A stretch of DNA of 34,072 nt from Chloroflexota bacterium (GTDB taxonomy: Bacteria; Chloroflexota; Anaerolineae; Aggregatilineales; Phototrophicaceae): NCBI GenBank assembly GCA_026706445.1, contig JAPOYT010000176.1, positions 1-34,072 on the forward strand. Reading direction: 5' to 3'. Under the pieces are notes generated by a model. It ran no database searches. It worked only from the letters and a program-made list of their open reading frames with translations, and was not told the DNA's origin. Made by a program: the position numbers and the translations under genes. Of this stretch, positions 1,331 to 24,579 are shown piece by piece; position 1 is the stretch's first letter, and each line of letters begins with the position of its first letter.

Positions 1331-2005
1331 ATGAAGGTCATGCTCGTGGATCAAGCGCAAATCCCTACTTACCTGGCGCTGGCGATGAATGCGGTGGTCA
1401 TGCTTTTGATGATTGCTTCGTTCTTCCGGCGCTATGCTACAAAGGATGACATCAAAGACCTGAGTGACAAACTGGACAGCGTCGAAAACAGGCTGGGCAA
1501 TCTTGAAGCCGGGCAGGCCGCGCTTAAATCCGGGCAGACCGCGCTTGAAGCCAGACAGGCCGCGCTTGAAGACGGGCAAGCCGCGCTTGAAGCCAGACAG
1601 GCCGCGCTTGAAGGCGGGCAGACCGCGCTTGAAGCCAGACAGGCCGCGCTTGAAGGCGGGCAAGCCGCGCTTGAAGCCAGACAGGCCGCGCTTGAAACCA
1701 GACAGGCCGCGCTTGAAGGCGGGCAGGCCGCGCTTGAAGCCAGACAGGCCGCGCTTGAAGGCGGGCAGGCCGCGCTTGAAACCGGGCAGACCGCGCTTGA
1801 AGGCGGGCAGGCCGCCCTCGAAGCCAGACAGGCCGCGCTCGAAACACGATTCGGAAGCCAGGAAAACCGGCTCGGCTCGATTGAAAACAAGGTCGACGCC
1901 TCGCTTGATCTGCATCACACCGTCCGCGGCGACTTAAAAGTTATGCAAGCCACGGTCAACCGCCTCGAAAGCTATTTCGAAACACCCAAACTCAAATCCT
2001 CCTAA
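1331..2005 (+). CDS. Membrane-anchored heptad-repeat coiled-coil protein
   Basis: A 224-residue protein of unknown function. Residues 12-32 form one hydrophobic segment, probably a membrane anchor, followed by a basic FFRR stop. Residues 34-57 are a polar helix-like stretch. Residues 58-169 are sixteen exact 7-residue repeats of the form LEARQAA/LEGGQAA, and a degenerate C-terminal helix ends in ESYFETPKLKSS. Leu recurs every seventh residue with Ala pairs, as in a long alpha-helical coiled coil. The repeats are encoded by a 21-bp minisatellite (1502-1837), so the length may vary between strains. It has its own promoter and lies between 31-bp direct repeats. Its stop overlaps by 4 bases the stop of the convergent gene at 2002-4863. 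AAGAGG lies 12 bases before the chosen ATG; the ATG at 1340 is an alternative. No defence or structural role can be assigned from sequence alone. Confidence 0.7.
   Translation: MKVMLVDQAQIPTYLALAMNAVVMLLMIASFFRRYATKDDIKDLSDKLDSVENRLGNLEAGQAALKSGQTALEARQAALEDGQAALEARQAALEGGQTALEARQAALEGGQAALEARQAALETRQAALEGGQAALEARQAALEGGQAALETGQTALEGGQAALEARQAALETRFGSQENRLGSIENKVDASLDLHHTVRGDLKVMQATVNRLESYFETPKLKSS
1502..1837. repeat. 21-bp tandem repeat (minisatellite), 16 copies
   Basis: Sixteen in-frame copies of a 21-bp unit resembling CTTGAAGCCAGACAGGCCGC plus one base, coding LEARQAA. GGGCAG and CCAGACAG variants alternate over much of the array, giving a partial 42-bp higher-order period. The unit length is a multiple of three, so copy-number change lengthens or shortens the coiled coil without a frameshift. 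Long open frames on both strands here are by-products of the repeat. Confidence 0.9.
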
Positions 2006-4863
2006 ACCTCATAAGGTTTTCCTGTGATGGACGGCTCGCGGCTGAGTTCGCGGCGGATGTTGGCGACGACTTCAGGCATGATGTCCAGGGCGTCGGTGAC
2101 CACGCGATCGAGCGCCCCCCGCGTTTCGTCTTGCATGATTTGCGGCAAGGGCAGCAGGGTGAAATTGCAGAGCGTGTCGAAAGCTGTCGCCAGGGCGGTG
2201 ACTTGGCTGGCCTCCAGCGCATAGAAGTCAGGGACGATGACGCGGCGCAGATCGTACATGGACATTTGAGGATAAGTCGGCTTCTTGTTCGTGCGGTCTC
2301 CCAGAATTGCCAAAATGCCAATAGTGGAATTGAAATAGGCGCACAACGCTTTTTCTAGCATAACTTCGGCATATTTATTTGCACGAGGTTTGCAAGGTAT
2401 CCATAGCGAACCCAGCGCCTTTTGGTTCAAGCGAACGCTCATACACCGAATCGTTGGAAGAAAGATGCGAAATGGAAGCATCATGTGCCCACGCTTTGCC
2501 CATAAATCCGCTGCCTGCTCCACTTTGCCCGGTTTCGGTTTGATATAAGTATCCCATCTCGCCCGCATCTTCTGTGTAACATCTGTCTTGTGGTACCAGA
2601 GCGCGACCATAGCCTCTTTGTCCGGCACTTCCGAACGGTCGAATATGCCCCGCACGCCTTGCCCGGCTGGACCTAACTGAGCGATATGACCAAGTTCTCG
2701 AAAGGCGAAAAACTCGTCTTCCCGCAATTCCACAAATTTCTCGCAGAGATATGGCGACAGAAACTGCACCCCGCCCCAGTCGCCTTGGGCAATGCGGTCG
2801 TGGGGCCAACGCTGCGCTGTGCCTTTGATGTTTGCCGTTCTGTCTTCGGCGATATCCCGCGCCACGCCCAGCGCGTCAGCCGGCGTGGCCGGATTTTCGT
2901 AGAGGTTGACGATGGTTGTGGGCGCCCCCACCCCCAAACCCCCGCGCCGCTCCAGTTGAGGCGGAACATCCCATTTCTCGCGGGCTGTCTCCCTCTCCCT
3001 CATTTGCGCCGCGTAGACACTGACGGTCGGGGAGGGGGCCGGGGGGTGGGGGTCCTTCCGCCGACAAATCAGCAGCATCTCTCCGATGGACGTATTCTCC
3101 GAAAAGTATATCCGCGTCGGATCGTGCGATGTGACGATGGTGTCAATGTGAAATTCCTTCGCCAGATAGATTCGCATTTCTCTAGTCGCATAATTGGTCG
3201 CGCCAACTAGCGGCAAGACAACCGCGATAGTTCCACTTTTGGATTTCACGATTTTGTCAGCCAGAGCCAAGAATCCGCCGCCGTTGTGAGAGCGATGAAT
3301 GCCGCCTTCCAGTTTGTCAAACAACTCCTTCTCCCGCGCTTTGAGTTTCTGCTCCTGCGCGCGGCTGAACTGGTCGTGGCGCAGGCTGTCCCGCGTAAAG
3401 GGCGGGTTCATAATCACCAGGTCGGCCCGCTCGGCTTCGGCGCTTTCCTCCCGCGTTTCAATCTGCTCGACGCCGGTGGGCCAAGGCAGCAGGCGCGGCT
3501 GCCCGTCCACCCCCGTATCCAGGAATTCCAGCGAACCTAATTTCGCCTCGTTGTTCTCGTCAATACCCAGCAAGGCGCGGTATATCTTCATATTCTCGAA
3601 GGTGGTCGTGGGCGAGAGCAAGCCCAGCGTGGTCGCCGCCAGGTGCGTCGCCGTCAGGTTGACATCGTAGCCGGTCAAGACATTTTCGATGAGCAGGCGA
3701 GACACTTCGTCTTGATTGCCGGCCGCGCTGGTCAAATCGCGGATGCGCTCGGCGGCCGCCATCAGCAGTGTGCCGGTGCCGCAGGCCGGGTCGGTGACGC
3801 GCAGCCGGGCGATGGCTTCGCTGTCCGACCAATCGAGCATGTCTTCTCGCAGCGCCAAGTTCGCCAGCAGGGTGGCGGCAGCGGTGGTGGTGTAGAAGGA
3901 GCCGTCGTAGCGGGCGGTATCGAGCACTTTGTGGAAGATGCGCCCCAGCAAATCATGACGCAAGCCGACGATGTTGCGCGCTGCTTGCAGGGATGCCCGC
4001 GCGACAATTTGCACGGCGGCGGTGAATTCATTCGAGCCGGCTAAAACTTGCAGCGCGCTGCGAGCGGTGTCGAAGATCGGCTTGTAATCGACGAGGAGCC
4101 ATAGCTTCCAAGCCTGCGAGAACGCGCCAATCGGATCGGCGCTATTGGCGCACTGGCTGGCGCTGGCGGGGGACCACTCGCCCGCGTAAGCGCGCGGCTT
4201 GATCGTATGTCGATGCTTGTCCAGTTGGCTGTGAAACATGACGGCGGTGGCGACGACGAGCATGGCGCGTTTGGCTGCTTGATTGAAGCGGCTGGTCAAG
4301 GCATGGCTCGTCTCTGACTTTGTGGGTTTGCCGGCCGGCAGATCCAGGCAGGCGGCGAGGTCCTGCTTTTGACTTTCATTGAGCCGCGCAACAGCGCGAT
4401 CCAGGCTGAATGAGAGGCGGTTGGCAATCTCGTCCGGGTCGCCGAGCTGGTCGGGGATTTTGCGGATCACGCTGACCAGTTGCGGGATATGATCCCGCTT
4501 CCAACTGGTTTTCTTCGCCGGCGGGCGTTCCTTGTGGCTGCGCAGCGTATGCAGCAGTTCGCTGCCCGCAAGCTCAGCCGGGGAGCGCAAGCCCTCCGGG
4601 TAACACAGCGCGATGGCGCAATCCGCCAGGTCATCATGCAGGCGGCTGTCGGCGTCTTTTATTGCCGAGGCTTTCTTTGACTTGGAAAAGCCCTGTTCCG
4701 CTTCCAGCGCAATTTTCAGCCCGTCGAGCGAGATTTCCACATCCAGGCGTTTGCCGCCGCCTTGACCGATCTCGGCGCGCGCATTCAAGCCGCGCTCTCG
4801 CAGGGCAGCCGCCAGCCAGGTATTCAATGTGCTTTCATAAGCGCTCATTGGACGACTCGTCAC
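2002..4863 (-). CDS. Type IIG-like restriction-modification enzyme / N6-adenine DNA methyltransferase
   Basis: A 953-residue protein that probably methylates adenine in DNA and may also cut it. Motif I DPACGTGT is at 358-365 and catalytic motif IV NPPF at 486-489, in the order expected for gamma-class N6-adenine methyltransferases. The N-terminus contains LDVEIS...IALEAE (residues 40-56), which resembles a PD-(D/E)xK nuclease core and would fit a single-chain type IIG enzyme; this is weaker evidence. The C-terminal half resembles a target-recognition region (NKKPTYPQMSMYDLRR near 859-874). Residues about 603-649 are Pro/Arg-rich and are encoded by a C-rich repeat element inserted in frame. 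The GTG start overlaps the iolG stop by 3 bases; the ATG at residue 6 (4848) is an alternative start. The 3' end is duplicated at 1152-1190. Confidence 0.75.
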   Translation of the reverse strand: MTSRPMSAYESTLNTWLAAALRERGLNARAEIGQGGGKRLDVEISLDGLKIALEAEQGFSKSKKASAIKDADSRLHDDLADCAIALCYPEGLRSPAELAGSELLHTLRSHKERPPAKKTSWKRDHIPQLVSVIRKIPDQLGDPDEIANRLSFSLDRAVARLNESQKQDLAACLDLPAGKPTKSETSHALTSRFNQAAKRAMLVVATAVMFHSQLDKHRHTIKPRAYAGEWSPASASQCANSADPIGAFSQAWKLWLLVDYKPIFDTARSALQVLAGSNEFTAAVQIVARASLQAARNIVGLRHDLLGRIFHKVLDTARYDGSFYTTTAAATLLANLALREDMLDWSDSEAIARLRVTDPACGTGTLLMAAAERIRDLTSAAGNQDEVSRLLIENVLTGYDVNLTATHLAATTLGLLSPTTTFENMKIYRALLGIDENNEAKLGSLEFLDTGVDGQPRLLPWPTGVEQIETREESAEAERADLVIMNPPFTRDSLRHDQFSRAQEQKLKAREKELFDKLEGGIHRSHNGGGFLALADKIVKSKSGTIAVVLPLVGATNYATREMRIYLAKEFHIDTIVTSHDPTRIYFSENTSIGEMLLICRRKDPHPPAPSPTVSVYAAQMRERETAREKWDVPPQLERRGGLGVGAPTTIVNLYENPATPADALGVARDIAEDRTANIKGTAQRWPHDRIAQGDWGGVQFLSPYLCEKFVELREDEFFAFRELGHIAQLGPAGQGVRGIFDRSEVPDKEAMVALWYHKTDVTQKMRARWDTYIKPKPGKVEQAADLWAKRGHMMLPFRIFLPTIRCMSVRLNQKALGSLWIPCKPRANKYAEVMLEKALCAYFNSTIGILAILGDRTNKKPTYPQMSMYDLRRVIVPDFYALEASQVTALATAFDTLCNFTLLPLPQIMQDETRGALDRVVTDALDIMPEVVANIRRELSREPSITGKPYEV
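2010..2040. repeat. 31-bp direct repeat, copy 2 (at 3' end of methyltransferase gene)
   Basis: CATAAGG...GACGGCTCGCG, matching 1160-1190 at 28 of 31 bases, with start positions exactly 850 bases apart. Together the two copies bracket the coiled-coil gene and its promoter. See the relic entry at 1152-1190. Confidence 0.7.
2925..3052. repeat. C-rich/G-rich element inserted in a coding region
   Basis: About 128 bp bounded by inverted C-run and G-run ends: CCCCCACCCCCAAACCCCC (2925-2943) pairs with the G-run at 3034-3052 at 16 of 19 positions. The inner part shares TTTGCGCCGCGTAGACAC with the element at 1-55. It lies in frame within the methyltransferase gene. The inserted peptide interrupts what otherwise reads as a continuous motif block, GEMLLICRRK then TTIVNLYENP. 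There is no transposase; it resembles a small non-autonomous repeat. Confidence 0.65.
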
Positions 4864-5885
4864 CCACGATCTTGCCCCGCCCCTAACTCATCCAATCTCA
4901 CGGGTCGATTCTCCCGCAGCGAGCGCATGCCCGCCATCGCCATCACCACCGGGACGCGCCCGTCATTGCCGACCACCGGCACGGTCTTCCCGTTGGCGAT
5001 CGCATCGACAAAGGCGATCATCTCAGTCACATAACTTTCGAAGTAGCGCTCGACGAAAAAGTGCAGCGGCAGGTCGCGCCTTACGCTCGCCGCATCGCTG
5101 ATCGTCACCGCGTTGGGATGCCAGTTGCCGGTTGTCGCCGCGCCCTTGCTGCCGAAGACTTCGACTCGCTGATCATAACCATAAACCGCTTGCCGGCTGT
5201 TTTCGATGCTGCCGAAGGCGCCGTTCTCGAAACGCAGCATCACCTTCGCCGTGTCGATATCGCCCGCCTCGCCAATCGCCGGATCCACCTTCACATCGCC
5301 CAGGGCGTAGATCTCTTCCGCCTCGCCCAGCAGAAAGCGCGACAAATCGAAATCGTGGATCATCATGTCCATCATCAATCCGCCCGACGCCTTGATATAA
5401 TCAATCGGCGGCGGCGACGGATCGCGACTGATGATTGTCATCGTATGCGGGTCGCCGATTTCGCCGCGCGTAATCGCCCCCTTGACACGCGCGTGATTGG
5501 CGTCAAAACGCCGATTGAAGCCGATCTGCAACTGCACGCCGGCCTCGTCAACAGCCGTCAGCGCCTCGTCAATCTCGGTCAGATCGAAGGCGATCGGCTT
5601 TTCGCAGAAGATTTGCACCCCCGCGCGCGCCGCTTCGATGATGAAGCGACAATGCGTATCGGTCGACGAGCAGATGACGATTGCGTCCATGGCGCCGCTG
5701 CCAATCAGTTCAGACGGGTCGGTGGTAAAATCGGGGATGCCATTGTCCGCCGCCGCCGACTTGGCCGCCTCTTCAAAGATGTCGGCCACCGCCAGCACTT
5801 TCGCGCCCGGGATCCGCGTCGTCAAGGTATTGGCGTGCAAACGTCCGACGCGCCCCGCGCCGATGATGCCCAAATTGATCGTCAT
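4860..5885 (-). CDS. iolG: myo-inositol 2-dehydrogenase (Gfo/Idh/MocA family)
   Basis: A 341-residue NAD-dependent oxidoreductase that probably oxidises myo-inositol to scyllo-inosose, the first step of inositol catabolism. The Rossmann motif GAGRVG is at residues 9-14, EKP at 95-97, and the segment GGLMMDMMIHDFDLSRFLLG at 168-187. Lys96, Asp173 and His177 line up with the Lys/Asp/His catalytic set of characterised IolG. Length is normal for the family. The presence of iolC on the same strand 3.8 kb away supports an inositol role, although scyllo-inositol or another polyol is possible. Its stop overlaps the GTG start of the methyltransferase gene, so the two may be co-transcribed by chance of position rather than shared function. 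Confidence 0.87.
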   Translation of the reverse strand: MTINLGIIGAGRVGRLHANTLTTRIPGAKVLAVADIFEEAAKSAAADNGIPDFTTDPSELIGSGAMDAIVICSSTDTHCRFIIEAARAGVQIFCEKPIAFDLTEIDEALTAVDEAGVQLQIGFNRRFDANHARVKGAITRGEIGDPHTMTIISRDPSPPPIDYIKASGGLMMDMMIHDFDLSRFLLGEAEEIYALGDVKVDPAIGEAGDIDTAKVMLRFENGAFGSIENSRQAVYGYDQRVEVFGSKGAATTGNWHPNAVTISDAASVRRDLPLHFFVERYFESYVTEMIAFVDAIANGKTVPVVGNDGRVPVVMAMAGMRSLRENRPVRLDELGAGQDRG

Positions 5886-5945
5886 GGTCGCCCCTGGATA
5901 CGCTCGTAAACATTGGCGCCTAGTTTATCGAATCTCGCCTCATTA

Positions 5946-5975
5946 TTGAATAGCGCGACATAGTTGCGCTACAAT
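5946..5975 (+). promoter_or_regulatory. Promoter and palindromic operator of the toxin-antitoxin module
   Basis: TTGAAT (5946-5951), 18 bases, TACAAT (5970-5975) form a plausible promoter 27 bases before the first antitoxin ATG. A perfect inverted repeat TAGCGC-N9-GCGCTA (5951-5971) fills the spacer between the two boxes, where a bound repressor would block polymerase. Toxin-antitoxin operons are usually autorepressed this way; which protein binds here is unknown. Confidence 0.5.
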
Positions 5976-6002
5976 CGCAAGTGTAGATGCAGGAGGCTAA
6001 CG

Positions 6003-6230
6003 ATGTACCTCGGCAAAGAGAATTCGGCGATGGACGGACCCAAGCTGAAGCCGGCTCCGCCGGAAGATATCGTAGCCGATGACGACGATCGCGAGCCGAC
6101 AAAAGAAGAAATCATGGATGATATTCGCCAGGGACTCCGCGATGTGCTGGCGGGCGAACAAGGGATGCCAGCGCTGGAAGGCTTAGAAGCGCTGCGTCGA
6201 AGAATTTACCACGATACCGAAATCAGGTGA
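6003..6230 (+). CDS. Antitoxin-like protein, copy 1
   Basis: A 75-residue acidic protein. Residues 10-60 (MDGPKLKPAPPEDIV... to LRDVLAGE) are almost identical to the next gene. The C-terminal part (EEIMDDIRQGLRDVLAG, then LEALRRRIY) is helical and resembles small antitoxins encoded just before RelE/ParE-type toxins. I use the ATG at 6003 because AGGAGG sits 6 bases upstream (5991-5996). No separate DNA-binding domain is obvious. It is the first gene of a three-gene unit with copy 2 and the toxin, and probably arose by tandem duplication. It could still neutralise the toxin or could be diverging toward another partner. Confidence 0.6.
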   Translation: MYLGKENSAMDGPKLKPAPPEDIVADDDDREPTKEEIMDDIRQGLRDVLAGEQGMPALEGLEALRRRIYHDTEIR

Positions 6231-6391
6231 GCATCTAATGGACTGGAGAATGAAAATGGACGGACCCAAGCTGAAGCCGGCTCCGCCGGAAGATATCGTA
6301 GATGTTGACGACGATCGCGAGCCGACAAAAGAAGAAATCATGGACGATATTCGCCAGGGACTGCGCGATGTATTGGCTGGGTATGAAGGTC
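6030..6391. repeat. Tandem gene duplication (226-bp period)
   Basis: The roughly 130 bases from 6030 and from 6256 are nearly identical, both starting ATGGACGGACCCAAGCTGAA, with scattered differences that are partly silent. The offset is 226 bases. The two units code for the N-terminal and central parts of the paired antitoxin-like proteins; the C-termini and the linker DNA between them have diverged more. Confidence 0.85.
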
Positions 6392-6456
6392 AGGATGCGA
6401 TGGAGTCCCTAGAAGAGTTACGTCGGGAAATATACGGTGAGACCGACTCTCGTTAG
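6256..6456 (+). CDS. Antitoxin-like protein, copy 2
   Basis: A 66-residue acidic protein nearly identical to copy 1 over its first 45 residues, ending in LEELRREIYGETDSR. I start at the ATG at 6256 because GGAG lies 7 bases upstream and the protein then begins MDGPKLKP like the shared block of copy 1. An ATG at 6238 in the same frame is an alternative. Its 3' end overlaps the toxin gene by 20 bases, the usual antitoxin-before-toxin arrangement with translational coupling, so this copy is the more likely cognate antitoxin. Confidence 0.65.
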   Translation: MDGPKLKPAPPEDIVDVDDDREPTKEEIMDDIRQGLRDVLAGYEGQDAMESLEELRREIYGETDSR

Positions 6457-6784
6457 GGATTTGCCGCGATTTAAGAAGCGGCTTGGTCGGATTGAACGCA
6501 AATATCCGAAGACAATAGATGCGGTAGAGAGCCTAATCGCGAGCCTGGCGCAAGGAAAACGTCCCGGACAGCGTATCCCGCGTGTCGGCTACCCTGTTCA
6601 CAAAGTGCGCCTGCCCAATCGCGCGGCCCGGCGCGGCAAGAGCGGCGGTTTCCGCGTGATCTATTACGCGCAGCTTGAAGATGTCGTTACCTTGCTGACC
6701 ATCTACAGCAAATTCGAAGAAAGCGACATCAGCGCAAGGGAAATTCAGGACCTGGCGCGGGAAGCCGACGAAGCGGCGCGCTAA
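6437..6784 (+). CDS. RelE/HigB-like toxin (putative mRNA interferase)
   Basis: A basic protein of 115 residues. The core VHKVRLPN...KSGGFRVIYYAQLEDVVTLLTIYSKFEESDIS is the pattern of RelE-superfamily toxins, which cleave mRNA on the ribosome and are held inactive by the antitoxin. It begins with a GTG at 6437 inside the end of antitoxin copy 2, and its stop overlaps by 3 bases the stop of the convergent methyltransferase gene. Toxicity and RNA target cannot be read from sequence. It is placed between two restriction-modification-type loci, which is common for such modules. Confidence 0.75.
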   Translation: MRPTLVRDLPRFKKRLGRIERKYPKTIDAVESLIASLAQGKRPGQRIPRVGYPVHKVRLPNRAARRGKSGGFRVIYYAQLEDVVTLLTIYSKFEESDISAREIQDLAREADEAAR

Positions 6785-8342
6785 AATCCATCCATGCGCT
6801 GTTGCCCGGCATCACGCAGGCGCCAGCGTCCCGAGGGCAACTCCCGCGCCAGCTCTCGAAGCACATTTAGAATCGTTTGCTCTTCGGGAGTGAGGCCATT
6901 TTTGAGCATGGGCATGATATCTTGCACAATCTCACTGAAATCTGGGTCGACGCGCTCCAACCGCTTGCGTTTGAGATAGGACAGCAGAAAATATCGCAGG
7001 CGCAGCTCAACTGGAATGGCGCTTTTGAACTTCTTGTTCTTGGGGAGATGATACTTCTGCGTCTCGTCGTCTAAATAAAAGTAGCTGTCCAGCATCGGCG
7101 AGAGGTCGTCGTACTTCTTACTAAGCAAGTCAAGGAAGCCCAGCTCGATGCCCTTGATGATGAGCTCGCTGTTGATCTCTTCGATCGTCGCGCCGTTCTT
7201 TTCCGCGATGACATTTTCAGCCGTCTCCAGGATCAGGTCAGTCGCGTCATCGCCCAAGTCGAGCTTCATAATGGCTCTAGGGCTGCGCGCCTTGCGGAAG
7301 TTGATGATGAGCTGCCCACTGAGCACAGTGGAAGGATTTTGTCGCTTCTTGAACGAAACCTTGTTGTTGGACTGTGGGACCGCGCCCATGTATTCGAAGC
7401 CGGCTTTTTCCGCCGTTTCCACGATGGTATGCCAATAAGCCGGGTTTTTATCGGCGAAGACGAAGCTCATCCAGCGGTCAAACTTCAAGACGCGGTAAAG
7501 CTCGCGGATGGATTGCGCCATCAAGTCGCTGTATTCCTCGCGCGTCTTTTCAAGCCGGCCGCCTTCGATGATTTCCTGCTGGCGGTCGAAATCGCTGACG
7601 GGCAGATCCAGCCAAGCCAGCCACATGGTCGAGAGATCGAGATATTGTATCTTCGCCCCATAGGGCGGGTCGGTGTAAACATAATCGACGCTTTCGTCAG
7701 TGATTCGGTTTAAGTCGGTTGCTGTGCCCTGGTAGGCAACAAAATCGTGTATTGTTTCTTCCGTGAAATGCGGAGCTAGTTCTTTCTTGGCATTCGTCAC
7801 GCGCCGATATCGGTGGTTAAAGAATCGCATTGTGTCAATTGAGACCGGATTCGGAGCGATTCGATAGCGATAGTAATTCATAATTCCACTGCCACCTCTA
7901 CCGACACTGCGCCCCTTCGATTGGTGGTAAGTTAAATTAATTAAGTTTATCAGGCTAGAAAACATCAGCAGCAAATTGTCGCGTATGTGGCCTTCGCTCA
8001 AGTTCAAAATCAGCTGCTTTAGCAAAGCCAATTCCGCCAACTGCCTATCGGAGAAAAGCTGCTCAACTGTGTCGACATCGCTGTCTTTGGGCAGGGGATT
8101 GCCAGTGGGATAAGGATAAACGCGCAACGCCGCTCGGATTTCGTCATCCGTCGTGGGGACGAGCCTCTGGAATTCGGCTACAACTTGATTGTAGGCTTCC
8201 CCAAGTGCATTCAAATCTATCGGCTGAACCAGCGCATTGACCCAAAATATCGTAAGGGGATTGATGTCGATATGAATAGCGCGGCGTCCGAGCACAACTG
8301 CCTCAATGGCAGTTACTCCGCTTCCGCCAAATGGATCGAGAA

Positions 8343-9053
<711 letters not shown>

Positions 9054-17646: not shown

Positions 17647-19194
17647 TCATTCGCTTTTGCGCATCGCCCGTATCAAACTCCGGCCCGTCATCTCCGCCGG
17701 CTGCTCGACATCCAGCAGATCCAGCACGGTCGGCGCCACATCGGCCAGCCGTCCCCAACTGTGCAAATCGTAGTAGCGCGCGCGATCAATCACGAAAAGC
17801 GAGACTGGTCCCACTGTATGGTATGTATGCGGCTCGCCCGTCGCTTCATCGATCATGCGCTCGCAATTCCCGTGATCGGCGGTCACGATAGCGGCGCCCC
17901 CTTTCGCCAGCGCCGCCTCCACCAGCCGGCCAGCGCAAGCGTCAACCGCTTCCACCGCTTGGATGGCGGCCGCCAGCGAGCCCGTATGCCCGACCATATC
18001 CGGATTGGCGAAGTTCACCAGCACGAAGTCATCATCAGCCGCCCCTAAGCGCGCAAGCGTCGCTTCGGTCAACTCGAAAGCGCTCATCTCCGGCTGCAAG
18101 TCATAGGTTGCCACTTTCGGCGACGGCACGATATTGCGCGTCTCGCCCGCGAATGGCGCCTCGTTGCGCCCGTTGAAGAAAAATGTCACATGCGGATACT
18201 TCTCCGTCTCCGCCGTGTGATACTGCGTCAAGCCGGCATTGCTCAGCGTCTCCGCCAAGGTGTTGCGCAGCAGCTCCACCGGGAATAGGATCTCGTCAGT
18301 CAACCCGCCCATATACTCCGTCATCGTGACCAGGCGCAGGTCAGCGATCGGCTGAAAGCGGTCGGCGCCATCGAAGTCTCGCTTGACAAAAGCCTGCGTT
18401 AACTGACGCATGCGGTCGGCGCGGAAATTGAAGCAAAGCAGCGCATCGCCCGGCGCAATGCCCATACCCGCTTCGCCTCCGACCACGGTGGGCGCGATGA
18501 ACTCGTCCGTCACGCCTAGATCGTAGGACTGCTGCATCGCCGTTGCCGCATCAGGCGCGTGGACATCGCTGACGCGCATTGTCATCGCGTCATAGGCGCG
18601 CTGCGTCCGCTCCCAGCGCCTGTCGCGATCCATCGCAAAGTAGCGCCCGCTCACCGTCGACACAGTCCCGCAGCCATCCCGCTCGATTTTTTCCACGAGC
18701 TCGGCGCAATACCTGAGACCATTCCGCGTCGGCGTATCCCGCCCATCAGTGATCAGATGCAATATCGGGTTCAGGCCATTGGCGCCGGCGATATCCAGCA
18801 GCGCAAACAGGTGATCGGAATGGCTGTGTACGCCCCCATCCCCCAGCAAGCCTATCAAGTGCAGCTTGCGGCCGCTCTGGCCTACGTATCGCAGCGCGCC
18901 GCGCAAGGCGGCATTCTCCGCCAGCGACCCATCGGCGATGGCATTGGCAATCCGCGAGATATCCTGATAGACGATCCGTCCAGCGCCCAGATTGAGATGA
19001 CCGACTTCGGAATTGCCCATCTGACCGGGCGTCAGACCAACGTGTTCGCCGGAGGTATGCACGATGCAACGCTCGCCGCTTCGCAGCCAGCGATCGAAAT
19101 TCGGCGTCTCAGCCTGCGCCACCGCGTTGCCATGTTCCGCCGCGCGGATGCCCCAGCCGTCCAAAACGATTAGCAATACCGGTCTTCGTCTCAT
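17647..19194 (-). CDS. gpmI: 2,3-bisphosphoglycerate-independent phosphoglycerate mutase
   Basis: A glycolytic enzyme interconverting 3- and 2-phosphoglycerate with two metal ions and a phosphoserine intermediate. VLDGWG (10-15) holds metal ligand Asp12, and GNSEVGH (60-66) holds the phospho-accepting Ser62. ITDGRDT, NFRADRMRQL, FANPDMVGHTG and TADHGN follow in the normal order. The ATG at 19194 gives 515 residues, the usual length, with AAGGG just upstream; the longer frame back to 19284 adds an unlikely N-terminal extension. It lies between the large membrane protein gene (90-base gap) and glpD (24-base gap). Confidence 0.95.
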   Translation of the reverse strand: MRRRPVLLIVLDGWGIRAAEHGNAVAQAETPNFDRWLRSGERCIVHTSGEHVGLTPGQMGNSEVGHLNLGAGRIVYQDISRIANAIADGSLAENAALRGALRYVGQSGRKLHLIGLLGDGGVHSHSDHLFALLDIAGANGLNPILHLITDGRDTPTRNGLRYCAELVEKIERDGCGTVSTVSGRYFAMDRDRRWERTQRAYDAMTMRVSDVHAPDAATAMQQSYDLGVTDEFIAPTVVGGEAGMGIAPGDALLCFNFRADRMRQLTQAFVKRDFDGADRFQPIADLRLVTMTEYMGGLTDEILFPVELLRNTLAETLSNAGLTQYHTAETEKYPHVTFFFNGRNEAPFAGETRNIVPSPKVATYDLQPEMSAFELTEATLARLGAADDDFVLVNFANPDMVGHTGSLAAAIQAVEAVDACAGRLVEAALAKGGAAIVTADHGNCERMIDEATGEPHTYHTVGPVSLFVIDRARYYDLHSWGRLADVAPTVLDLLDVEQPAEMTGRSLIRAMRKSE

Positions 19195-19283: not shown

Positions 19284-21836
19284 CTAACGCAGCGCGGCTG
19301 CCAGCATTGTACTCGCTCGCGGCGGGAGCGGCGCGTCGGCATTATACAGCGCGCTCGCGTCATACGGCGCCTTACTTTCCAATCCCAGAAACGCGGCCGG
19401 CGCCTCGACCAATGCAACGGATAAATCTTCATGTAGCCGAAATACGAGCGTGCGGCGCAGCAATTCCCCCGGCGCCGCCGACGAAAATATCGTTTCCTCG
19501 CCGCTGAATTCGCCGCAATCGCTAATCGAATGGCAGAAGTAAGCATATTCAGGCGCGCCGCCTTCATAGAGCGCATGCAGCGCGCTATTCAGCATGTCAT
19601 TATTCAGAAACTCTCCGATGCCCATCGCTCGCAGCTCGGTGTTGTCCATCTCCGTTACCATTGCAATTTGCATATTCGAAGTCAAATTCGGGGCGATCAC
19701 AAGCAACTGATGCAAGATACGCGCTTTAGAATGCGCGCTTTCAATGAATCCGCCATGCTGCGTGAAAAGCCGCGACGCAGCGGGCGCCAATAGCAACAGG
19801 CAAAGGCCCACTGCGATAATTTGGCGCCGCAAATTGTCGCGTATCGGCGAGACCGCTAGCAAAATTAGACTGAAAGCTGCGATGGACCCGCCGATGGGCG
19901 CCAACATGTAAATCCGCCAGGAATCGCTGCGATAAAAGGGAATCCACATCAAAACGCCAATCGCGGCGAGGATGAGCAGAAGCCCAGATCCCAAGGCGAT
20001 CAAATGCTGGCGCGTGGTCGGCTGCTGCGCATACTTTTCCTCGCGGAGGTGAAAGCAGGCGATGAGAACGACAGCCGCCAGCATGATAAAGGTCGACAGC
20101 CACCACCGATTCGCGCCCAGAGCCGCCAATGCGTCCCGCCAGCCCAAAACAAACGCGCGTTCATAGACGACGCCCGCCACCTCAATAAAGATGTCAAGGA
20201 CTGAGGCTTGCTCCTCCGGGCCCGCGCCAATGAGATCACCCTGATAAAAGTCGCGTCCACTCGCCAGCAGCAAAACGACGAACGCGATTTTGAAACCCGG
20301 CGCCAGATACCAGATGGCGCTCAGGTTCAGGTTGCGCCGCCAATTTTGCCGCCCATCACGCAGCCACAGCAGCAGTGGCGCGATCAAAATGATTGCGTAG
20401 CCCGTCTCGTTCGATCCGACGCAAAACAGCAGCCCCAGCCAAAGTCCCAGCAGCGTCAGTCGTCTCGGCTCTCTGCAATAGTCCAAGAACAGAGAACCAG
20501 CTAGCAGGAGCGATACCGTGCTGAAATTGTTGGGCAGCCGCCGCAAACTCATCAAGTCGTCATTGACCGGATAGAACATGAACAGCATCGTTGTTAGGAA
20601 GGCGTATAGCGGCGATACTCCCAGCTGACGCAGGATGATGTAAAACAGCGCCATGCCGCCAGCATAGAAACCATAATTGACCAGGTGATAACCGACAAAT
20701 GTCTCCGAGCTGATTAGATAAGCCAGGGTGCGCGGCAGATTTACCCACGGGCGCGAGATTGCTTCGGTCGCGTAATAGCTCAGCGTCCCCCCTTCCGTGT
20801 AACCGTGGATGATCCACGCTTCCCAATGAGCGGCGCTGTCAAAGCCAAACGGCAAATACAAGACCAATACGACAAAGAAACAGCCAAGGATGGCAGCGGC
20901 GTCCGCCCGAGACTCACGGCGCCGGAACCGCTTAACATGTCGCGCCGCCATCGGACCATAAATCAACAGGCTCAGCGCGATTCCGACCAGCGACAAATAA
21001 AAGTAAGGAGGCGGAACCGACCGGTGCGGGAAGAGCGAATGAATTGGCAGAGCGTAGGACGCGCTTTCTCCAGCTTCATTCTCCACTTCGAGACGCGCGA
21101 ATGCGCCGTCTTCAGCGCAATGCTCAGCTTGAGCCGGATCGCTCTCGCTCGCAATCGCGCGCCCATTGAATCGCGCCGACCGTTCGCCAACAATCGACCA
21201 CCGGATATCGACGCAATCATGCGGAAACAAGATGCGATCATGCCCCGCCCACATGTGAAGCGCGATGTCTCCGCGGACCTCGTCAATCACGCGCGGCTCA
21301 TAAGTCTGCAAGCGCAGCCAACCGCCCAGCACGCTCAGCGCCAAGGTACCGAGCGCCAGCCAATACACCGGGATCGGTCGTCCAGGCGAGCGCGCAACGA
21401 AATAGAAAACAGCCAGCAAGGGCGAGCCAATGAACGTGACAAAGCCTAAGAGGTAAAACAGCAAATCGGGCAAATGGCGGATAGCCAACCGGAAACTGCG
21501 ATAGATCCCATCTTGCGCCCGCAGCTCGAATAGCGGGCTCGTCGCATTGATATCCGGGCAGAATCGCATCTCGTCAGCGCCGATCTTGCCCGCGCCATCG
21601 ACGTGCAGCGACGCTATCCCCTCCAGCCGCCACTCTATAATCAGGCAATCGCCGGGGAACAAGGTCCAGGCTCGGTCGGCGCGGATGAAGACCGTCGTCT
21701 CGCCATACGCGCGCTCAATGCTTGGCGCTGGATTGTTTAGTACAGTTAGAATCAGTAGGAGGCAAGTCGCCAACAGCGAGGCAAGTGACGTTACCCGCCG
21801 CGGAGACGCGCCCGCAAGCGGTCCGCCCGCCTTCAT
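19284..21836 (-). CDS. Large polytopic membrane protein with duplicated GDC...W ectodomain
   Basis: An 850-residue membrane protein of unknown function. An N-terminal hydrophobic segment (about 17-36) is followed by a domain with LFPGDCLIIEWRLEGIASLHVDG. After one or two membrane spans, a second copy of that domain appears (LFPHDCVDIRWSIVGERSARFNG). Each copy has a further Cys about 20-30 residues on, suggesting a disulfide-linked beta fold outside the membrane. From about residue 285 come roughly ten more hydrophobic spans, reminiscent of GT-C-type glycosyltransferases or polymerases, and a soluble C-terminal part from about 690. The start overlaps the sqdB stop (ATGA), so translation is coupled and a role in envelope glycolipid or glycan assembly is reasonable inference. 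I cannot name a family with confidence. Confidence 0.75.
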   Translation of the reverse strand: MKAGGPLAGASPRRVTSLASLLATCLLLILTVLNNPAPSIERAYGETTVFIRADRAWTLFPGDCLIIEWRLEGIASLHVDGAGKIGADEMRFCPDINATSPLFELRAQDGIYRSFRLAIRHLPDLLFYLLGFVTFIGSPLLAVFYFVARSPGRPIPVYWLALGTLALSVLGGWLRLQTYEPRVIDEVRGDIALHMWAGHDRILFPHDCVDIRWSIVGERSARFNGRAIASESDPAQAEHCAEDGAFARLEVENEAGESASYALPIHSLFPHRSVPPPYFYLSLVGIALSLLIYGPMAARHVKRFRRRESRADAAAILGCFFVVLVLYLPFGFDSAAHWEAWIIHGYTEGGTLSYYATEAISRPWVNLPRTLAYLISSETFVGYHLVNYGFYAGGMALFYIILRQLGVSPLYAFLTTMLFMFYPVNDDLMSLRRLPNNFSTVSLLLAGSLFLDYCREPRRLTLLGLWLGLLFCVGSNETGYAIILIAPLLLWLRDGRQNWRRNLNLSAIWYLAPGFKIAFVVLLLASGRDFYQGDLIGAGPEEQASVLDIFIEVAGVVYERAFVLGWRDALAALGANRWWLSTFIMLAAVVLIACFHLREEKYAQQPTTRQHLIALGSGLLLILAAIGVLMWIPFYRSDSWRIYMLAPIGGSIAAFSLILLAVSPIRDNLRRQIIAVGLCLLLLAPAASRLFTQHGGFIESAHSKARILHQLLVIAPNLTSNMQIAMVTEMDNTELRAMGIGEFLNNDMLNSALHALYEGGAPEYAYFCHSISDCGEFSGEETIFSSAAPGELLRRTLVFRLHEDLSVALVEAPAAFLGLESKAPYDASALYNADAPLPPRASTMLAAALR

Positions 21837-23017
21837 CCGATGACTTCCGACCGCTTGCGGCTGGCATCCCAGCGGATATCGGGAATCAACAATTCGGCGC
21901 GCGCTTCAATGCGACCTCGGTTCTCGCGCAGATCCAATAACATTTCCTTGACCACCGACTTGATGTCGCGCGTCGGCTCATACCCGAGATCCAGCAAATG
22001 CTTTCGATCCGGATTGTAGTAGTGCTCTTCCATCTCCACCCGCGGATTGTCGTAGCGTTTGATCTCGACCGCCAAGCCGATATCCGCCGCGACATCCCGA
22101 ACCAGACAAGCCAATTCGCTGATTGAATAAGCATTTTCAAATTGATTGAAAACGCGGAATTCGCCAGCTGCCGGCGGGTTTTCCACCGCCAAAGCCAGGC
22201 AGCGCATCGAATCCGCCAGCGGCAGGAAGCCCCGCTTCTGCTTGCCCAGCCCAAAGAGCGTCAGCGGATGACCGATTACAGCCTGGCAGCAAAAGCGGTT
22301 GATCGCCGTGCCAAAGCACTGATCAAAGTCGAGCCTCGTGCGCATGCGCCAGTCGTCGTCCATCTCCGGGATCCGCGTGCCGAAGACGACGCCCTGCATG
22401 ATATCCGTCGCCCGCGCGCCCCAAATTTTTGTGGCAAGCTGCGTATTGTGCGAATCGTGCACTTTGCTCTGGTGATACCAACTGCCGGCTTGCCGCGGAA
22501 AGGGCAATCGGTCGACCCGCCCGCGAAATTCGACTTCGAAAAATCCTTCGGGGATGTCGACCGCGGGCGTGCCGTATTCGCCCATCGTGCCCAGCTTGAC
22601 CAGATGCGCCGCCGGCACAACCTCTTTGATCGCCCATAAGATATTCAAATTGTTGATGACGTTATTCCGCTGCGTCCAAACGCAATGCGCCTGATCCATC
22701 ATCGAGTATGGCGCCGACGGCATCTGCCCCAGATGGACAACCGCCTCCGGCTGGTATTCCTCGAAGAATCCTTTGACAAAGGCGTAATCCGTCAAATCCC
22801 CAACGCGAAAGTCGAGCGCCAGGTCAGTCGCCTCTCGATAAGCCTCCAAGCGTTCCTCTCGGCTGGCGATCGGTAAAGCGCTGTCCCCGCCGACTTCCGC
22901 CACCCATTGGCGCCGCAGCAGCAGATCCGCGCCGGCGACTTCGTGCCCGCGCGCGTTCAAATAGATCGCCAGGGGCCAGCCCAAATAGCCGTCTATGCCA
23001 GCGATAAAAACTCTCAT
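21833..23017 (-). CDS. sqdB: UDP-sulfoquinovose synthase-like NAD-dependent epimerase
   Basis: An extended short-chain dehydrogenase/reductase of 394 residues. The family member SQD1/SqdB makes UDP-sulfoquinovose from UDP-glucose and sulfite, the head-group donor of sulfolipid. The Rossmann motif is GIDGYLGW near the N-terminus. KLGTMGEYGTP with the catalytic Thr region, and GSWYHQSKVHDS with the YxxxK pair, match SQD1 closely, and the C-terminal EHYYNPDRKHLLDLGYEPT is also characteristic. The ATG at 23017 is chosen (GGGAGC 5 bases upstream); the frame extends to 23074. A weak promoter candidate (TTCAAA, 16 bases, TAAGAT) lies at 23074-23101 on the minus strand. No SqdX-type glycosyltransferase is visible, so the lipid product is inferred. 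Confidence 0.85.
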   Translation of the reverse strand: MRVFIAGIDGYLGWPLAIYLNARGHEVAGADLLLRRQWVAEVGGDSALPIASREERLEAYREATDLALDFRVGDLTDYAFVKGFFEEYQPEAVVHLGQMPSAPYSMMDQAHCVWTQRNNVINNLNILWAIKEVVPAAHLVKLGTMGEYGTPAVDIPEGFFEVEFRGRVDRLPFPRQAGSWYHQSKVHDSHNTQLATKIWGARATDIMQGVVFGTRIPEMDDDWRMRTRLDFDQCFGTAINRFCCQAVIGHPLTLFGLGKQKRGFLPLADSMRCLALAVENPPAAGEFRVFNQFENAYSISELACLVRDVAADIGLAVEIKRYDNPRVEMEEHYYNPDRKHLLDLGYEPTRDIKSVVKEMLLDLRENRGRIEARAELLIPDIRWDASRKRSEVIG

Positions 23018-23259: not shown

Positions 23260-24579
23260 ATGCCGCTTCCGCAGGCGGCGCGGTCTGTCCTTTGCGAGAC
23301 TAACTTGAAAAAGACTGCTACCCACTCATCCGGTTACCTGCAACTGATACGCGGCAACCGCGCTTTTCGTTATCTCTGGGCGGGGCAGGTCATCAGCTTG
23401 ACCGGCGACTGGTTTAACTTGATCGCCTCGGCCGCCCTGATCGCGACCTTGACGCAATCCGGTACCGCTATCGGCGGTCTATTCGTCGTTAGGATGCTGG
23501 CGCCCTTCCTCGTCAGCCCAATCGCCGGCGTCGTGGCGGACCGCTACAACCGCCGGACCATTCTCATCATCACCGATGTGCTGCGCTGCTTCGTCGTTCT
23601 GGGCTTTGTGCTGGCGCGCGATCCGCAGCTCGTCTGGCTGATCTACGCGCTCACCGCGGTACAGGCGGCCTCCCAGGGCTTCTACTTTCCCGCCTGGAAT
23701 GCCCTGCTGCCCGATATCACCAAGCCGCAGGAGCTGGGCATCGCCAACGCCCTCTCGTCCGCCACCTGGTCGGTCATGCTGGCTTTTGGCTCGGCGCTGG
23801 GCGGCTTGGTCGCCGGCGTTGTCGGCGTCTATCCCGCCTTTGTGATAGATGCGGTCACCTTCCTGCTCAGCGCGCTCATCCTCCTGCGAATGCCCTATCA
23901 ATCAACGCTTGAGCGCAGATCCGACCAATCGGCGCTGGCCGGCATCCAGCAATACCTTGATGGGCTGCGCTATCTGCGCCGGCATATCGATACCTTCTCC
24001 ATCGCTATCCAGAAAGCCGTTCTCGGTTTCTTCATCATTGGCTTCTTCCAGGTAGCGCAAGTCACCATCGCCGAGAAATATTTTCCCATCGGCGAAGGCG
24101 GCAGCATCAGCATGGGCTTGATCTACGTCATGGCTGGCATCGGTTCCGGTCTCAGCCCAATTCTCGGGCGCAATTGGGCGCGCGATCGCGATCGGCGCCT
24201 GCGCCTGATGATCGCCTTTGGCTATGTTTGTTCGTCCCTCGGCTTTCTTATTTGCTCAACCTTGATTTCACTGCCCGTCGTGCTCATCGGCGCGCTTCTG
24301 CGCGGCGTCGGCGGCGGATTAGTTTGGGTCCTGGGTACGCAGCTGCTCTTGCAGATCGTGCCGAACGAAGTGCGCGGACGCGTATTCTCCACCGAGTTCG
24401 CCCTGTACACGCTCTTCGCCGCCGTATCTTCCGGCACAACCGGGCGCCTCATCGATACCTCGCTTGGCGTCAGCGGCGTCCTCCAGCTCGGTTCTATTAT
24501 TCTGGTCCTGCCGACGGCGCTCTGGCTGCTCTGGATCTTCTTCGGCAAACGTGACCTGGTCAAAGCAAAAGCCGCCTGA
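23260..24579 (+). CDS. MFS exporter (DHA3/EntS-like)
   Basis: A 439-residue major facilitator with about twelve hydrophobic spans. The loop GVVADRYNRRTILI between helices 2 and 3 is the family's motif A, and the repeat-half pattern (FYFPAWNALLPDI, then IVPNEVRGRVFSTEFALY) is typical of the drug or siderophore exporters related to MefA and EntS. It probably expels a small molecule using the proton gradient. The substrate is unknown. The start is uncertain: ATG at 23260 is given, but TTG at 23305 would begin LKKTATHSSGYLQLIRGN and fits the usual N-terminus better. It is divergent from the sqdB operon. Confidence 0.85.
   Translation: MPLPQAARSVLCETNLKKTATHSSGYLQLIRGNRAFRYLWAGQVISLTGDWFNLIASAALIATLTQSGTAIGGLFVVRMLAPFLVSPIAGVVADRYNRRTILIITDVLRCFVVLGFVLARDPQLVWLIYALTAVQAASQGFYFPAWNALLPDITKPQELGIANALSSATWSVMLAFGSALGGLVAGVVGVYPAFVIDAVTFLLSALILLRMPYQSTLERRSDQSALAGIQQYLDGLRYLRRHIDTFSIAIQKAVLGFFIIGFFQVAQVTIAEKYFPIGEGGSISMGLIYVMAGIGSGLSPILGRNWARDRDRRLRLMIAFGYVCSSLGFLICSTLISLPVVLIGALLRGVGGGLVWVLGTQLLLQIVPNEVRGRVFSTEFALYTLFAAVSSGTTGRLIDTSLGVSGVLQLGSIILVLPTALWLLWIFFGKRDLVKAKAA

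Follow-up and report, generated by a model that had tools for sequence, protein, structure and literature searches.

What sugar chemistry does a gene of the sulfolipid type serve when the next gene, overlapping it, encodes a large membrane protein? This question is raised by a stretch of 34,072 nucleotides from a Chloroflexota bacterium of the family Phototrophicaceae (assembly GCA_026706445.1, contig JAPOYT010000176.1), called the window below. It carries a gene for an enzyme resembling UDP-sulfoquinovose synthase (sqdB) and, directly downstream, a gene for an 850-residue membrane protein, here termed GTC. Judged from sequence, GTC would be a GT-C glycosyltransferase of a new subfamily near the PMT_2/ArnT-like enzymes, working with the SqdB-like enzyme, a reading to which we assign a probability of roughly 55%. 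It is carried by the gene pair with its conserved overlap, by a family-level similarity of GTC to PMT_2, and by conserved acidic and Arg residues. The conserved pair points to an uncharacterised surface sugar. The features of the pair, in window positions, are as follows.

21833..23017, reverse strand: SqdB-like (UDP-sulfoquinovose-synthase family) short-chain dehydrogenase/reductase (SDR) enzyme of 394 aa, counted from the ATG at 23017; NF041015 523 bits, SQD1 1qrr 401 bits.
22718..22720, reverse strand: codon of Pro100, in the column of SQD1 Arg101; HLGQMPSAPYS against HFGEQRSAPYS of SQD1.
21833..21836, reverse strand: ATGA start/stop overlap, a likely sign of translational coupling.
19284..21836, reverse strand: GTC, 850-aa membrane protein with an ATG start, a putative GT-C glycosyltransferase with two extra domains.
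21477..21737, reverse strand: first GDC..W domain, residues ~34-120, between predicted transmembrane helices 1 and 2, from alignment and hydropathy.
21033..21299, reverse strand: second HDC..W domain, residues ~180-268, from alignment and a low-confidence model.
20682..20849, reverse strand: loop of residues 330-385 behind the first core helix, FGFD...HWEaW, of candidate catalytic role.
19737..20891, reverse strand: multi-span GT-C-like core, residues ~316-700, with a PMT_2-like stretch at ~372-475, from hydropathy and profile comparison.

The ATG of GTC and the TGA of the SqdB-like gene share a 4-base overlap (..GGATGAAG..), an arrangement suggestive of translational coupling. Its distribution was followed in 61 genomes, the window's own (G000) and 60 relatives, with 34 genomes in the genus (G, C and L numbers denote genomes, contigs and loci). 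Detection required E <= 1e-60 for sqdB and E 0.001 or better for GTC. GTC homologues were found in 37 of the 61 genomes, 30 in the genus and 7 outside it; the latter comprise six with a match in the N-terminal part and one, G059, with a match in the core. Within the genus, 31 genomes have sqdB and 29 have both genes; neither was found in G009 and G031, sqdB alone in G001 and G004, and GTC alone in G003 (Fisher P 0.03 for co-occurrence, descriptive only, as relatedness is ignored). In a wider profile search, 13 of 199 genomes of the class matched, including the window's own and G006; the other 11 comprise two with the core (G043, G115) and nine with the N-terminal domain alone. Roughly 75 GTC homologues were collected in all. 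On the fetched stretches, GTC lies directly downstream of sqdB on the same strand at 27 of the 31 sqdB loci of the genus. Scoring the nearest ATG, GTG or TTG as the start, 24 of these 27 adjacent pairs have one available at -4 (ATG or GTG in 22, TTG in 2), and the remaining three have theirs at +6, -8 and +81. Under a longest-open-reading-frame (ORF) start rule, the -4 spacing occurs in 16/25 sqdB-GTC junctions, in 3/32 GTC-GTC junctions and in 0/24 junctions of GTC with the downstream gene for cofactor-independent phosphoglycerate mutase (iPGM). The overlap is retained although the GTC proteins are 35-83% identical to that of the window. The original prediction, made from the window alone, had described the 850-residue protein with its overlapping start and proposed a search for sqdB beside homologues in other genomes; the description is confirmed, and the counts show the linkage to be conserved.

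GTC combines a multi-span core with two smaller domains. Hydropathy averaged over 43 relatives gives the order helix, Cys domain 1, two helices, Cys domain 2, helix, basic stretch (RHVKRFRRRESR) and multi-span core, with peaks at residues 24, 134, 168, 292 and 323, followed by some nine others as far as 683; the C-terminal part (~700-850) has no such peaks. The two related GDC...W domains separated by membrane spans, as the prediction had put it, are recognisable as F-P-G-D-C64..W69..C93 (residues ~34-123) and F-P-H-D-C208..W213..C240. Of the 43 aligned rows, 41 have C64 and 36 have C93, the remainder being gaps (2 and 7), and C208 and C240 occur in all 23 rows that have the second domain. This second domain is built mostly of beta strands in the low-confidence model, in which eight of its nine ten-residue blocks have a pLDDT of 61-77 and one of 42. 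Both Cys domains would lie outside if the basic stretch is on the inner side, and so would the loop that follows the first core helix. GTC thereby has an acidic residue in what would be the first outer loop of its core: residue 339 is E in 42/43 rows, the remaining row having D. R362 and W566 are invariant (43/43 each), and the E/D-x-W and Arg positions are retained in four remote homologues. In GT-C enzymes the extracytoplasmic loop after the first transmembrane helix binds the donor and catalyses transfer (PMC11127046), and for this reason E339 is proposed as a candidate catalytic residue. The N-terminal Cys domain also occurs in other settings, joined to a GDSL-lipase domain (L140:3820-5850) and in a protein with FHA and Ig domains (L146:199-2088).

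The similarity of the core to PMT_2 emerges at the level of families. L136, L137, L142 and L143 encode remote homologues of the core (best domain of L143, 7e-30), and L143 matches PMT_2 at E 4.4e-4, under the Pfam cut-off. In L154 the N-terminal domain of GTC (5.7e-15) precedes a PMT_2 domain that scores over that cut-off. The window's own genome holds 29 PMT_2 matches, 27 of them over the cut-off, and all 29 match regions with their flanks were aligned together into a pooled profile. Compared by hhalign with this profile, the 43-sequence GTC core scored E 7e-7 at a probability of 92%, against 0.045 for the reversed profile, 0.2 for transporters of the major facilitator superfamily (MFS) and 0.13 for ABC permeases. 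A core-only version gave 1.4e-5 forward and 0.0074 reversed; the best of 20 column shuffles was 0.043 and the best of 20 block shuffles 0.0025, compared with 1.5e-6 for the same columns unshuffled. Together with hydropathy and the conserved E339 and R362, the pooled profile supports the GT-C-like multi-span region proposed at the outset. TMTC (PF08409), suspected from a YPVN..R motif, gave no match in 251 Chloroflexota genomes, a search whose controls were silent too and which is therefore uninformative. A second large PMT_2-like membrane family (~730-990 aa; L173, L176, L179 and L181, G000 contigs C55, C173 and C83) occurs in 34/34 genomes of the genus, often in tandem, with internal stops in some copies.

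By sequence, the SqdB-like enzyme of the window clearly belongs to the SQD1 family. Its open frame extends to 23074, and the ATG at 23017, preceded by GGGAG, is the most likely start and agrees with the end coordinate of the original prediction. The protein aligns over its full length with Arabidopsis SQD1. The SQD1 residues H96, T145, M146, Y182, H183 and K186 are kept in 44/44 rows of an alignment of SQD1, 42 sequences from the loci and the Sinorhizobium meliloti (S. meliloti) enzyme; it was made without G004, G006, G017, G038 and G047, which are hidden by antisense ORFs or have a broken frame. The fingerprint TMG..YxxxK is likewise intact in the window enzyme and all 44 rows, and [ST]MG..YxxxK is given as the motif of SQD1 and Agl3 in the review PMC8987622. 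Against the curated NCBIfam model NF041015 the enzyme scores 523.3 bits, below the cut-off of 575. This cut-off is not decisive, because an Arg-type sqdB beside a GT4 gene (L072) fails it too, at 469.3 bits.

The motif EQR(S/A)AP is altered: HFGEQRSAPYS of SQD1 corresponds to HLGQMPSAPYS in the window, so that the Arg is not kept, its column holding Pro and the Gln column Met. Pro occupies the site in 45 of 47 Chloroflexota sqdB copies, the window included (31 from the genus, 16 from elsewhere in the family and order). In this count the five genomes missing from the alignment were read by tblastn, and G049, G058 and a second copy in G056, which were matched but not read, were left out. Arg was found in S. 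meliloti (L133), Pseudonocardia (L134), G034 (L072) and G056 (L075), and a haloarchaeal relative (L135) also has Pro; L134 and L135 are named plasmid copies whose column was read separately from the 47. An Arg/Pro split of the SqdB family thus exists inside the Chloroflexota. In an unrooted tree of 23 SqdB sequences the Arg copies cluster (support 0.95); no single group unites the Pro copies. We know of no Arg at that column in 4,6-dehydratases such as RmlB. Agl3 carries EQRSAP, and its Arg-to-Ala protein is inactive, the column being taken from the primer table of PMC4388408. Because the Arg column is Pro, the product of the SqdB-like enzyme is not certain: the Pro form may add sulfite without the Arg, or may add no sulfite. 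In two other genera of the family (L065:8112-10662 and L066:5856-8473), a Pro-type sqdB precedes a gene of the histidinol-dehydrogenase family and one resembling the APH family. At L080:7242-8484 (G047), sqdB appears as two overlapping pieces in different frames, by assembly error or frameshift.

If the product were UDP-sulfoquinovose after all, it could feed the classical sulfolipid SQDG (sulfoquinovosyl diacylglycerol) through a GT4 enzyme encoded elsewhere in the genome, with the membrane protein an unrelated passenger of the operon. The evidence bearing on this comes from G034, in which an Arg-type sqdB is followed by a GT4 gene. A search of the window's genome with that GT4 matched contigs C214 and C85 (E <= 1e-25, C85 more weakly) and not the window contig C22, in agreement with the earlier remark that no SqdX is visible there; not every window ORF was scanned against family libraries. 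The C214 protein is 43% identical to the G034 GT4, as this alternative would have it. Orthologues of the C214 GT4 (75-81%) occur in G018, which has sqdB, but also in G009 and G031 (75-78%), and a 54% relative occurs in G057, all three with no sqdB detected. Because of the orthologues in G009 and G031, the C214 GT4 is probably not a dedicated partner and was not accepted as the SqdX, a judgement reached without a reference SqdX for comparison. The conserved sqdB-GTC overlap also speaks against the passenger role, and we consider this sulfolipid route very unlikely. A protein search of a plasmid collection returned only matches of 28-33% identity, with general or no names, among the 25 of 1587 records listed. 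The original prediction had named, as evidence against itself, an SqdX elsewhere in the genome combined with no conserved linkage; linkage is conserved (27/31), and what lies elsewhere is the related GT4 at C214. Of the prediction, the GT-C-like region and the coupled linkage to sqdB are supported; sulfoquinovose as the sugar is not established, given the Pro site and the NF041015 shortfall.

Several relatives have further sugar genes beside the pair. In 15 of the 31 loci, sqdB has a GT2 gene at a distance of 2.4-5.6 kb that is at least 67% identical to L096:16529-17548; such a gene was also found in G027, on a contig other than that of sqdB, and in G003, which lacks a detected sqdB. Among the other 17 genomes, 16, including the window's, have at best a 33-37% GT2 paralogue and G009 has no match. 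The nearest NCBIfam models of this GT2 are PgfS (204 bits, cut-off 500) and ArnC (148 bits, cut-off 529). The cluster at L096 runs MFS, DegT aminotransferase, 4,6-dehydratase-like SDR, two hexapeptide acyltransferases, GT2 and DHDPS; its DegT scores 233 bits with ArnB and 230 with PseC, and its SDR 144 bits, all under the cut-offs. Within the fetched stretches the cluster is complete in L096 and partial in other loci. A DegT gene stands beside MFS in 10 loci, and another lies within the sqdB operon itself in G006, G030 and G027; the window's genome has a 62% relative of this operon type at C55, away from sqdB. Tandem GTC genes (2 to 6 copies, counted inside the fetched stretches) are present in 11/15 GT2-bearing loci vs 0/12 other coupled loci (Fisher P 2e-4, relatedness ignored and descriptive only). 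In three loci (L085:4848-18546, L086:4156-17826 and L087:2938-16618), six GTC paralogues on one strand fill the space from sqdB to iPGM, with cores ~36-42% identical to that of the window GTC. Tandem amplification and the kept overlap go beyond a merely inherited gene order. Some GTC genes lie apart from sqdB: at L113:4105-7603 the neighbours are two ABC permease genes and one of the sulfatase family, and at L119:5285-14045 they are genes for a diaminopimelate decarboxylase, a sulfatase-family protein and a solute-binding protein.

The GT2/DegT cluster reads as a lipid-linked amino-sugar route beside sqdB-GTC, joined with the pair in some genomes. It lends substance to an alternative that we regard as possible, if tentative, in which no sulfur sugar is made. 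The SqdB-like enzyme, without sulfite chemistry, would yield a UDP-4-keto or UDP-5,6-ene sugar, DegT aminotransferases and acyltransferases would finish it, and an ArnC-like GT2 and the GT-C protein would use it, as in ArnB-ArnC-ArnT. Pro in place of Arg in 45 of 47 copies fits this scheme, as do the DegT genes in the sqdB operon of three loci and beyond MFS in ten others, and the SDR, hexapeptide acyltransferase and PgfS/ArnC-like GT2 genes of the same divergent cluster. Set against it are the SQD1/Agl3 fingerprint, intact in every row, the cluster's own 4,6-dehydratase-like SDR, with which SqdB may not be needed, and the window locus, which holds only the sqdB-GTC pair and no such cluster.

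For the reading of GTC as a GT-C glycosyltransferase partnered with the SqdB-like enzyme, a number of results weigh on the other side. Some concern the family assignment. The Pfam and NCBIfam scan of the window GTC gave no family at a useful score; it does not reach the Pfam PMT_2 cut-off, and one of 43 members matched PMT_2 (E 7.6e-4). Single PMT_2 groups compared with the 43-row core gave E above 0.001 in 15 of 16 cases, and the sole group below that value, enlarged to 32 sequences, gave 0.011 forward and 0.0058 reversed (1.2e-4 and 0.01 when the core was extended by the four remote homologues). L154 did not match the GTC core directly (0.29), and searches of the GTC family against solved structures (PDB) by sequence returned one chance-level match each or none. 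Fold prediction, suggested earlier as a check, was run on five sequences (the window and L061-L064) and gave no GT-C support: two poor models resulted (pLDDT 38 and 44), probably owing to too few sequences, and Foldseek with the second model only had no hit at E <= 0.001. Both models are taken as evidence neither for nor against GT-C. Others concern the linkage. In G001, G004 and G018 sqdB adjoins iPGM with no GTC between them, in G027 a DegT gene comes after sqdB and GTC is on a separate contig, and G003 has GTC with no sqdB detected. The first GTC behind sqdB is broken into two ORFs in G014 and G030; those of G014 look like one split gene and were not counted as tandem copies. The window's locus has no linked GT2 or aminotransferase cluster, its genome offering only the 34% GT2 paralogue at C165. 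The flanking genes of the pair matter here as well.

17647..19194, reverse strand: iPGM, with an internal ATG taken as start (TIGR01307 635 bits); conserved on the 3' side of the pair, its function probably unrelated.
23260..24579, forward strand: MFS transporter, divergent, conserved 5' neighbour of the pair, from family scan and synteny.

Because these neighbours are conserved too (iPGM in 27/31 and MFS in 25/31 sqdB loci of the genus), part of the gene order is simply inherited, and adjacency alone may reflect inheritance. The missing family call for GTC and the lack of a usable fold would also suit a protein that does not transfer sugars and instead polymerises, ligates, flips or anchors a surface polymer. 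The pooled PMT_2 similarity, well above its controls, argues for transfer instead, as does the conserved acidic residue that follows the first core helix, and we hold a non-transferase role to be unlikely. Farther along the window (2002-8454), N6-methylase-like and adenine-methyltransferase-like genes, possibly of restriction or defence, flank an inositol 2-dehydrogenase gene.

If GTC is a GT-C glycosyltransferase, the pathway could run as follows. In the cytoplasm, the SqdB-like enzyme would convert UDP-glucose into a modified UDP-hexose. A polyprenyl-phosphate sugar synthase, of the GT2 kind that 15 genomes of the genus have near sqdB and that is unlinked in the window strain, would move the sugar to a lipid carrier. 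GTC, with E339 as its likely catalytic acidic residue and its two extra domains outside the membrane, would then transfer it to a surface glycan, lipid or protein. The sugar might be sulfoquinovose, another C6-modified hexose or a 4-amino derivative; the sulfoquinovose version is the weaker, and a lipid-linked amino-sugar route is as plausible. A bolder conjecture, which we regard as doubtful, is that the Pro-type SqdB builds a sulfoquinovose-type or amino-sulfo sugar that is loaded onto polyprenyl phosphate and attached outside the membrane by dedicated, tandem-amplified GT-C proteins, so that the surface would bear a sulfonated glycan in place of, or in addition to, sulfolipid. If the pair works as proposed for GTC, SqdB-like genes in these Chloroflexota would be markers of glycan and not of lipid chemistry, and sulfolipid synthesis called from sqdB alone would be wrong in them. 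The Arg/Pro split and the coupled, amplified GT-C-like family lead to direct, testable predictions on the surface sugar of bacteria that are represented here solely by metagenome-assembled genomes (four named records). In titles and abstract openings among the literature matches listed, no SqdB-coupled GT-C enzyme appeared, and its absence from print is not claimed.

Compared with known systems, the window enzyme shares with SQD1, Agl3 and SqdB the full-length similarity (401 bits) and TMG..YxxxK, and with Agl3 also the Glu-Tyr pair tested there (E147/Y148). It differs in the Pro for Arg and Met for Gln in EQR(S/A)AP and in its NF041015 score under the cut-off. GTC resembles the PMT_2/ArnT-like GT-C enzymes (PF13231) in profile similarity after the first outer loop, in helix order and in the acidic residue after the first helix of the core, and differs in lying below Pfam detection, in its two extra N-terminal domains and in its coupling to a SqdB-like gene. 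ArnT is classified as CAZy GT83. Sponge-associated Chloroflexi genomes are described as rich in GT2, GT4 and GT83 in PMC6306507. The three-component extracytoplasmic glycosylation system (Gtr; GT136, PMC11127046) offers a parallel in the GT2 close to GTC in 15/31 loci; the window differs from it in having no polyprenyl-phosphate sugar synthase-like GT2 at the locus. The pairing with a GT-C-like gene sets sqdB of the window apart from its archaeal counterpart, as we know of no GT-C gene coupled to agl3. A precedent is the sulfoquinovose-containing N-glycan of Sulfolobus acidocaldarius, an archaeal system, unlike the window, in which a SqdB-family enzyme (Agl3) serves a glycan (PMC4388408, PMC5222938), as the window enzyme may do.

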